A stretch of 39,765 bases of DNA from Pirellulales bacterium (GTDB taxonomy: Bacteria; Planctomycetota; Planctomycetia; Pirellulales; JACPPG01): assembly GCA_036490175.1 (NCBI GenBank), contig DASXEJ010000246.1, positions 1-39,765 on the forward strand. The letters are read 5' to 3'. The stretch's first letter is position 1, and the number at the start of each line of letters is the position of its first letter. Below, one piece after another: positions 15,175 to 21,153 of this stretch. Under the pieces are notes generated by a model. That model made no database searches, had not been told where the DNA came from, and worked only from the letters and a program-made list of their open reading frames with translations. Made by a program: the position numbers and the translations under genes.

Positions 15175-15606
15175 ATGAGGATCAAGAGACGTGGATCGGC
15201 TGCCTGGCAAGGGGGCATAAAAGACGGCAAAGGCACAATCTCGATCGAGAGCGGTGCGCTGAACGCTTACCCCTACGGCTTTGCCAGCCGTTTTGAAGGG
15301 CAGCGCGGAAGCAACCCCGAGGAGCTGATCGGCGCCGCGCACGCGAGCTGCTTCACCATGGCCTTGTCGCTGATCCTCGGCGAAGCCAAGCTCATCGCCA
15401 CGCAGATGGACACGTCGGCCGAGGTTACATTGGATCAGGTCGAAGGGGGGTTTGCGATTACCGCCATTCATTTGACGTTGAAGGCCAAGATACCAGGGGC
15501 CGACCAGGCCACGTTCGAGCAACTCGCGGCGAAGGCCAAAGCCGGCTGCCCTGTCTCTAAGCTTTTCAAGGCGGACATCACGCTCGATGCGACCCTGCTT
15601 CCCTGA
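15175..15606 (+). CDS. OsmC/Ohr-family peroxiredoxin-like protein
   Basis: A 143-residue cytoplasmic protein of the OsmC family, which reduces organic hydroperoxides with a pair of cysteines. The two expected cysteines are present: C59 (NPEELIGAAHASCFTMAL) and C125 (AKAGCPVSKLF), and E50 precedes the first in the usual place. The spacing and length fit the OsmC subgroup (YhfA/SACOL1771 types are more distant). A strong ribosome site (AAAGGAGA, 15159-15166) sets the ATG at 15175. It appears monocistronic, flanked by a pseudogene and the minus-strand mini-genes. A promoter just upstream (TGGTAAACTATCGAAT region, about 15122) is possible but weak. Confidence 0.93.
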   Translation: MRIKRRGSAAWQGGIKDGKGTISIESGALNAYPYGFASRFEGQRGSNPEELIGAAHASCFTMALSLILGEAKLIATQMDTSAEVTLDQVEGGFAITAIHLTLKAKIPGADQATFEQLAAKAKAGCPVSKLFKADITLDATLLP

Positions 15607-15711
15607 TCCAACAGGCCTGGAATCATCGAGCCCTTGATTGAACGGCCATGAACCGTTCGGCGACAAGCGGCTTTAACGCCGATTGCCGGCTACGGTATAG
15701 TCCCGCCGTGA

Positions 15712-15837
15712 TCATGCGAGCAAAAAACGAAACATGATGGCGAGGATCAACAGTGTTGCCAGTGCGCTCGCCGGCGACCAGAATCGCGTAAGCAGACCAA
15801 ACAGGCCCGCACCGACAGCACATGAGATGATTATCAT
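15712..15837 (-). CDS. Predicted 41-residue membrane mini-protein
   Basis: Minus-strand frame from the ATG at 15837: MIIISCAVGAGLFGLLTRFW, then SPASALATLLILAIMFRFLLA and stop. It is almost entirely hydrophobic and can form two short transmembrane helices with an R-F-W turn. Its ATG overlaps the stop of the preceding mini-gene in an ATGA arrangement (15834-15837), the typical sign of translational coupling. I do not recognise the family. Coding status rests on the hydrophobic pattern and overlap; chance cannot be excluded. Confidence 0.45.
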   Translation of the reverse strand: MIIISCAVGAGLFGLLTRFWSPASALATLLILAIMFRFLLA

Positions 15838-16028
15838 CGCAGGACGGCTCCAACAGCACCGGGCAGTTTGCCCAAAAGATACTTCCGATTATTCGCAACC
15901 ATCCCATCCCGGAACCATTTGCCGATCGGCATACCGTCTTTGGGATAGGCCCTCGTCAAAGGGCTAGTCACCGGCCCGGCAGCAGGACGCCGCGGCCGGT
16001 ACCGTCGTAAAGCCGAGAAAATACTCAT
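15834..16028 (-). CDS. Predicted 64-residue basic protein, upstream partner of the mini-membrane protein
   Basis: Minus-strand frame with ATG at 16026-16028, reading MSIFSALRRYRPRRPAAGPV, then a segment containing YPKDGMPIGKWFRDGM and ending LPGAVGAVLR. It is basic with a central GKWFRDG motif and a Gly/Ala/Leu tail. The frame continues open upstream to 16250, but there it runs across the tRNA-Ser fragment on the opposite strand, so the internal ATG at 16028 is preferred. The stop overlaps the next ATG by ATGA. No family recognised and no strong ribosome site upstream. Confidence 0.5.
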   Translation of the reverse strand: MSIFSALRRYRPRRPAAGPVTSPLTRAYPKDGMPIGKWFRDGMVANNRKYLLGKLPGAVGAVLR

Positions 16029-16193
16029 GGAAAACCGGCGGAGACGTCCGGCCGGGTTGCTCTTGGTCTGTTTGCGTGTAGTCTTGAGAATGGCCGATTC
16101 GCGCTTGCCGTGGTTTGGCCAAGACAAGTGGCGCCGCTGATGAGCACTACCCGCGCCGCAGGACATCGTCGCAGGAAAAAGAGAGATTAGTTT

Positions 16194-16234
16194 GGATGGG
16201 TTGGCCGAGTGGTCGAAGGCGGCAGTCTTGAAAA
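16194..16234 (+). pseudogene. Detached 5' half of a tRNA-Ser gene
   Basis: 41 bases are identical to the first 40 bases of the intact tRNA-Ser(UGA) at 19571, apart from one extra T after the acceptor strand (GGGTTGGCC against GGGTGGCC). Identity covers the acceptor 5' strand, D arm, anticodon 5' strand and anticodon loop through GAAAA, then stops abruptly. The anticodon 3' strand, variable arm, T arm and 3' acceptor are missing, so it cannot make a tRNA. Both copies are preceded by TT and have the same orientation. It is a likely left attachment-site scar of an integrated element. Confidence 0.85.
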
Positions 16235-16396: not shown

Positions 16397-16891
16397 ATGG
16401 ATGATTTTCAGAAAATGCTCGCGGAACTAGCCGAGAGCGTCGCGGCCTCGAACGCTGAACGTGAGGCGCGAAGGTTCGCCGCCGAATCGGCGCGAAATCA
16501 AAAAAACGCCCTAGCGGGGCAGGCCGCAGGCAACTTGCTCTCATCGGCGGCGGTGCCGATCATCGCGAGGATCATCGAGGCGCTCAAGATCGGCGGAGAA
16601 GCCGAAAGTGTGAAGATAGACAATATCGACTTCATCGTTACGCCGCCCGTCCAATCTGGCGATCTCAAAAAGTCGATCGGGGTCGGAGTCACATCGGCAG
16701 TTAGCCCTGAAGACGGCGAGACCTTCCTCATCGTCCACTGTGGCGTCGCAGTCTCCCAACAAAGATCGCAGATTGTACTTCGGTGTGGCTGTCACAATTC
16801 GTACGGACCCACGGCGGATCCTGCCATGGTTACAAAATGGCTTGAGGCGGCTATCGGCGACAAGGTGGCCGGGGCGTATCTTCGCGCGTAA
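16397..16891 (+). CDS. Hypothetical protein, coiled-coil N terminus
   Basis: 164 residues from the ATG at 16397 (MDDFQKMLAELAESV), chosen because a GGGGAG ribosome site sits six bases upstream; an in-frame ATG at 16364 adds 11 residues without such support. Residues 1-35 are charged and helical (AELAESVAASNAEREARRFA), followed by an apolar segment (GNLLSSAAVPIIARIIEALK) and a beta-rich C-terminal half with two nearby cysteines (LRCGCHN). No family recognised, no signal peptide evident. It is the first gene inside the tRNA-flanked interval, so it is probably cargo of the relic element. Confidence 0.6.
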   Translation: MDDFQKMLAELAESVAASNAEREARRFAAESARNQKNALAGQAAGNLLSSAAVPIIARIIEALKIGGEAESVKIDNIDFIVTPPVQSGDLKKSIGVGVTSAVSPEDGETFLIVHCGVAVSQQRSQIVLRCGCHNSYGPTADPAMVTKWLEAAIGDKVAGAYLRA

Positions 16892-19570: not shown

Positions 19571-19657
19571 GGATGGGTGGCCGAGTGGTCGAAGGCGGCA
19601 GTCTTGAAAACTGCTGGGTGCGCAAGTGCCCCGGGGGTTCGAATCCCTCCCCATCCG
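19571..19657 (+). tRNA. tRNA-Ser (UGA)
   Basis: An 87-base class II tRNA. Acceptor strands GGATGGG (19571-19577) and CCCATCC (19650-19656) pair fully, with discriminator G at 19657. Anticodon stem GCAGT/ACTGC encloses the loop CTTGAAA, giving anticodon UGA, which reads UCA. A long variable arm (GGGTGCGCAAGTGCCC) and the T loop TTCGAAT are typical of tRNA-Ser. CCA is not encoded. Its 5' half is duplicated at 16194, and an integrase relic lies 102 bp upstream, so it was probably used as an integration site. Confidence 0.97.
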
Positions 19658-20136
19658 CTTTGCGCGTCGCGACGGGTACGGCCCGTTGGCCCGATTTCCG
19701 AGCGGAATCGGGCAAAAAAGGGGTTCCGTAGTCCCTGGCATGCGGCCGGCCTTCTGGTTGACAGGGGGGATGGGATGATTACTTTCGGAGTAATGATTAG
19801 TTGCCTCCGCATCCTGTCGTATGGGTCGAATCCGTCCTTTTTTCGTGACAGGTTGTGATTCGCGGCAGGCGCGCTCGATTGACCAGTGTCGATCACGCGT
19901 GGGTGCCGGAAATCGCCAGCGTGCTTCGGTTGTTCGGGCAACCATTCTCGCGGCGTAAAAGACACCGTGGCTGGTGAGCGGCGGTTAATTCGCGTTTTGC
20001 TGATGCGTGTCGTCGGTTACAACGCGGGTGACCCTATTGTCGCGCCGGCGCTCATCGGGCGTAGAATGCGTGGCGTTCATCGTCAGCCAGGGTACTTCGT
20101 CTCGTCCGTAGTCCGTCACCGAGCAGAAGGGCTCAC
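19658..20136. other. Gap after tRNA-Ser
   Basis: About 480 bp with no convincing gene. A hairpin at 19689-19713 (GCCCGATTT / AATCGGGC arms) is followed by an A run, not a T run, on the plus strand, so it is not a normal terminator. A short frame at 19886-20146 gives a Cys/Arg-rich peptide without a ribosome site and overlaps the next gene. Confidence 0.4.
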
Positions 20137-20952: not shown

Positions 20953-21153
20953 GCTCACGATTTCAGGGTGTTCACCATCGCGGCGCCGCAGGCAATGGCC
21001 GTATGGCGGTTGGACAACATCCTATTGCCGTCGCCAAGGCTATTGGCGGCAGGTCGTCCGCGTACCGATTTTGTTACGTTACCAACAATGTTAGATGGGC
21101 ATGTATTGATCGGTTAATCTTGCCTTCTACAACGACGTCCAAGAACACAGCCC

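Follow-up and report, generated by a model that had tools for sequence, protein, structure and literature searches.

Most characterised small membrane proteins act on a larger protein or complex of the membrane, to which they bind. MgtR acts upon a membrane protein (PMC6813294), and CydX is a 37-amino-acid subunit of cytochrome bd oxidase (PMC4325964). Here we describe a 41-amino-acid protein encoded in a 39,765-nucleotide stretch of DNA from a Pirellulales bacterium (contig DASXEJ010000246.1; hereafter the window). Like MgtR and CydX, it has fewer than 50 residues, is hydrophobic and is of a kind often missed by annotation; it differs from them in having two predicted helices, no adjoining partner gene, no family match and a known occurrence in one planctomycete genus only. 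It also recalls the type I toxins DinQ (PMC3567139) and Hok, with which it shares a small hydrophobic peptide and a patchy occurrence, here together with conserved leader DNA. However, DinQ has a single helix where two are predicted here, and the locus shows neither a leader fold common to both genomes nor an Rfam match. Lastly, a homologue from a related genome weakly resembles one membrane stretch (residues 95–132) of the MgtC family (PF02308, NF011912), but it is only 41 residues long and falls below every cut-off, and the window protein is without a match. A large survey could assign a domain to 6.1% of small-protein families (PMC11364881); as most of these families have no recognised domain, an unnamed one such as this is to be expected and is nothing exceptional.

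The preliminary description of this DNA had proposed a coupled pair of small minus-strand genes, sharing an ATGA overlap, in a stretch without a normal-sized gene. Both frames exist exactly so (Table 1), and the stretch from an OsmC-family gene (15175–15606; PF02566 match) to position 16397, where the next likely gene begins, is indeed without one. The overlap is no evidence by itself, being at chance level: the window contains 11 ATGA pairs in which both ORFs have at least 40 codons, as compared to a mean of 11.9 in 60 dinucleotide shuffles. The hydrophobicity of the 41-residue ORF is beyond chance and unusual for so small an ORF, with one ORF as hydrophobic in the surrounding 3.3 kb and none in 300 shuffles.

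Table 1. Features of the small-gene locus, with their positions in the window
Feature	Position	Strand	Basis
41-aa two-helix membrane protein gene, MIIISCAVGAGLFGLLTRFWSPASALATLLILAIMFRFLLA	15712..15837	-	G002 homologue, dN/dS, AlphaFold2
GGAG, likely Shine-Dalgarno of the 41-aa gene	15848..15851	-	GGAGCnGTC common to window and G002
Conserved block 2, GCGAATAATCG	15886..15896	-	11/11 identical in G002
Spacer, 18 nt	15897..15914	-	Equal length in G002, 4/18 identical (alignment count)
Conserved block 1, ACGGTATGCCGATCGGCAAATGG; probable transcription-factor site	15915..15937	-	21/23 identical in G002
64-aa basic frame, judged probably no gene	15834..16028	-	No homologue, codon score, not an ATG ORF in G002

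A search of 57 related genomes returned a sole strong match to the 41-residue protein (E = 1.2e-9), in a metagenome-assembled genome (MAG) of the same genus (G002; contig CAMFLN010000133.1, uncultured Planctomycetaceae). The matching ORF, MAALICASGIGLFALLTRFWSPAMSLAVLLILSIVLRAFAG, is exactly 41 codons long, with its start and stop where the window gene has them. The two proteins are 59% identical over their length, with a nearly invariant GLFxLLTRFWSPA core and two invariant arginines, R18 and R37. Their genes differ at 50 nucleotides, distributed 14/11/25 over codon positions 1/2/3, and the Nei-Gojobori estimates from these two sequences are dS ~1.8, dN ~0.39 and dN/dS ~0.21. When the same substitutions were permuted 20,000 times, the observed amino-acid similarity was never matched, and the sense frame scored z = 5.0 while the other five reached at most 2.2; the antisense frame on the plus strand (z = 2.2) was rejected as a real gene. 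The codon-position pattern, the dN/dS ratio, the permutation test and the sense-frame score show that the 41-residue frame is a real gene under purifying selection at the protein level. It thus passes the test of conservation with synonymous bias that the preliminary description had proposed. The product is ~80% hydrophobic (GRAVY 1.82), and AlphaFold2, run on the two-row alignment, places helices at residues 2–17 and 22–40 around a TRFWSP turn (mean pLDDT 77.5), in agreement with the earlier suggestion of a nearly all-hydrophobic frame with two potential membrane helices. These models predict membrane-spanning hydrophobic helices.

Upstream of the gene, both genomes carry a bipartite element, ACGGTATGCCGnTCGGCnAATGG-N18-GCGAATAATCG. 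Block 1 holds a 12-bp dyad, TGCCGATCGGCA, at 15920–15931 (the core in G002 is GCCGTTCGGC), and block 2 contains AATAAT at 15888–15893, a possible -10 box. From the end of the element to the start codon there are 48 nt in the window and 39 nt in G002. The blocks are near-identical although dS of the adjoining gene is near saturation, and their substitutions fall 8/7/5 by codon position with two frames scoring equally, so that no synonymous bias is seen. Two conserved boxes around a fixed-length random spacer are typical of a promoter or a bipartite protein-binding site, and a spacer of constant length and random content fits a DNA-binding site better than RNA. These two sequences therefore suggest that the element is a site of this kind. 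As a folded RNA it was rejected, the two leaders folding differently (z -1.8 versus +1.0) and finding no match in Rfam. Among 396 genomes of the order, the element occurs once in the window's own genome (G000) and once in G002; the 394 others contain no copy with up to three mismatches, and it is absent from the viral contigs searched. A regulon motif was likewise rejected: looser matches within the genus mostly overlap or adjoin long ORFs, with no small hydrophobic ORF downstream. The near-matches in G000 and G003 lie in long ORFs that look by eye like repeated dockerin-type sequence, which would explain the loose pattern matches in these two genomes.

The 64-residue frame fares differently. 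It has no credible homologue among the 57 relatives (best foreign match E = 0.006), no Shine-Dalgarno-like sequence was found upstream of its ATG, and its codon score is -0.067 per codon, as compared to 0.07 to 0.45 for the window's trusted genes (a doubtful ORF at 21003 likewise scores negative). Its counterpart in G002 is open for ~57 codons but lacks an ATG before the conserved block. The sole conserved part of the frame is the DNA element, which has no frame bias, and GKWFRDG, which had been singled out as a feature of a basic protein, is the translation of the conserved block and its spacer. The 64-residue frame is thus probably no gene. Because it fails, and only the DNA element in it is conserved, the locus reads as one small gene with an upstream element rather than as the coupled pair first described, of which the 41-residue frame alone is conserved. 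From the earlier likeness to membrane-effector or toxin-like pairs, the small membrane protein survives; the pair probably does not.

The 41-residue gene is present in two of five genus genomes and was not found in the other three, which are estimated to be 94–97% complete. No homologue was detected in the remainder of the 396 sampled genomes of the order, or in viral contigs and plasmid and phage collections, and a search of GTDB contigs matched the G002 contig only. Seven weak matches in a sample of the phylum were rejected as short, stop-broken or chance matches inside longer frames. As far as sampled, the gene thus appears to be restricted to one planctomycete genus, in a comparison of two sequences that both come from draft MAGs. 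Its neighbours in G002 are the divergent gene of an MFS transporter and the convergent gene of a 434-residue protein; the latter has orthologues 67–76% identical in the other four genomes, none of which has a copy of the small gene close by. There is no common neighbourhood around the OsmC gene, whose neighbours differ between genomes, nor around the 434-residue gene. Since the neighbourhoods of the two genomes share nothing else, the element and the gene form a unit of ~230 bp that has been retained in unrelated surroundings. Each of the two contigs appears to be native to the genus, as the neighbouring genes have close same-genus orthologues.

The plus strand upstream of position 16397 also carries a partial tRNA-Ser, consisting of the 5' half up to and including the anticodon loop (16192–16234), that is 98% identical to an intact tRNA-Ser(TGA) lying ~3.4 kb downstream in the same orientation (19571–19658). 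This half copy may be the scar of an integration event or what remains of a decayed tRNA. Between the two lie a glycosyltransferase and an orphan ORF of 164 residues (16397–16891, plus strand), whose codon usage is like that of a gene (0.147 per codon) but which matches nothing in Pfam significantly.

What the comparison of the two genomes demonstrates is an ORF under protein-level selection and an element conserved at fixed spacing. To account for both, we lean towards a gene that stands alone, encodes a small protein of the inner membrane and has its own regulated promoter, and whose product binds a larger membrane partner. Transcription would start from a promoter made up of the dyad-containing block, the 18-nt spacer and GCGAATAATCG, with block 2 as the -10 region and a 5' leader of ~44 nt. 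Taking AATAAT as the -10 box, block 1 would be centred near -44 and serve as the operator of an activator, and the absence of a conserved -35 box would follow from an activator in that position. In this promoter reading, which comes from one sequence pair, the two boxes together fit no known sigma-factor consensus. Translation would begin from the gene's own GGAG site. The product, a putative helical hairpin (helix 2–17, TRFWSP turn, helix 22–40), would use its helices to bind a larger protein or complex of the membrane and adjust the activity or stability of that partner on the regulator's signal. The 64-residue frame upstream would simply result from reading across the control element. By analogy with characterised small membrane proteins, the 41-residue protein probably either regulates a membrane complex or is one of its small subunits; no shared neighbour gene indicates a partner.

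A type I toxin-like locus is the foremost alternative. Here the peptide would damage its own cell's membrane when over-expressed and be restrained by an RNA, with the conserved leader as an RNA target or a ribosome-standby structure, as in DinQ or Hok. The small size and strong hydrophobicity of the peptide, its patchy distribution in unrelated contexts and a leader conserved at the nucleotide level without codon bias are all consistent with such a locus, as is one sigma70-like site on the plus strand (15673–15701) that points into the 41-residue gene. However, nothing equivalent to this promoter-like site lies next to the gene in G002, the protein has two helices and not one, and the unlike folds of the leaders, the lack of an Rfam match and the spacer, better suited to a DNA-binding site, likewise argue against RNA control. 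A toxin-like role is possible but unsupported, and we regard it as unlikely.

More doubtful still is the reading in which both frames are genes, an upstream leader or basic peptide being coupled to the membrane protein through the overlap in a mok/hok-like manner. In its favour, the frame through the conserved block ends on the start codon in both genomes (ATGA in G000, TGATG in G002), and the blocks and spacer stay in frame, giving readable short peptides (MPIGKW...ANNR and MPFGQW...ANNR). The substitutions in the blocks favour neither of two frames nor synonymous sites, the 64-residue ORF itself has not been retained in G002 and lacks a ribosome site, and ATGA pairs occur as often as by chance. 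We give equally little credence to a small membrane effector under RNA control, whether hok/mok-like or not, that would be new to planctomycetes and would have translation of the 41-residue protein controlled by the bipartite leader and its short peptide.

The preliminary description had recognised neither family, and Pfam, PHROGs and NCBIfam contain none above cut-off for the window protein or the G002 protein. The G002 protein does match residues 95–132 of the MgtC-family model PRK15385.1 of NCBIfam (E = 0.022), and MgtC genes were detected in three genus genomes, G000 included, which raises the idea of a protein related to the last two MgtC membrane helices, in reduced form, that acts on full-length MgtC. 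We consider this origin very improbable: the match scores 14.1 bits against a curated cut-off of 255, the window protein has no MgtC-family match in NCBIfam, Pfam gives none, an hhalign profile comparison with the local MgtCs was negative, and no MgtC was detected in G002 itself. That the hydrophobic frame is noise, matched in G002 by chance or through shared non-coding DNA, is hardly credible, for although there are two sequences only, the codon-position pattern, the identical length, the permutation test and the E value of the match all speak against it.

The wider consequence of the 41-residue gene is modest at present. Annotation easily skips a membrane protein gene this short, but two draft genomes were enough to recognise it by the pattern of its substitutions, and with it comes a control element that can be put to the test. 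Moreover, the gene adds a family without a match in the searched libraries to the small proteome of planctomycetes, which has been little studied.
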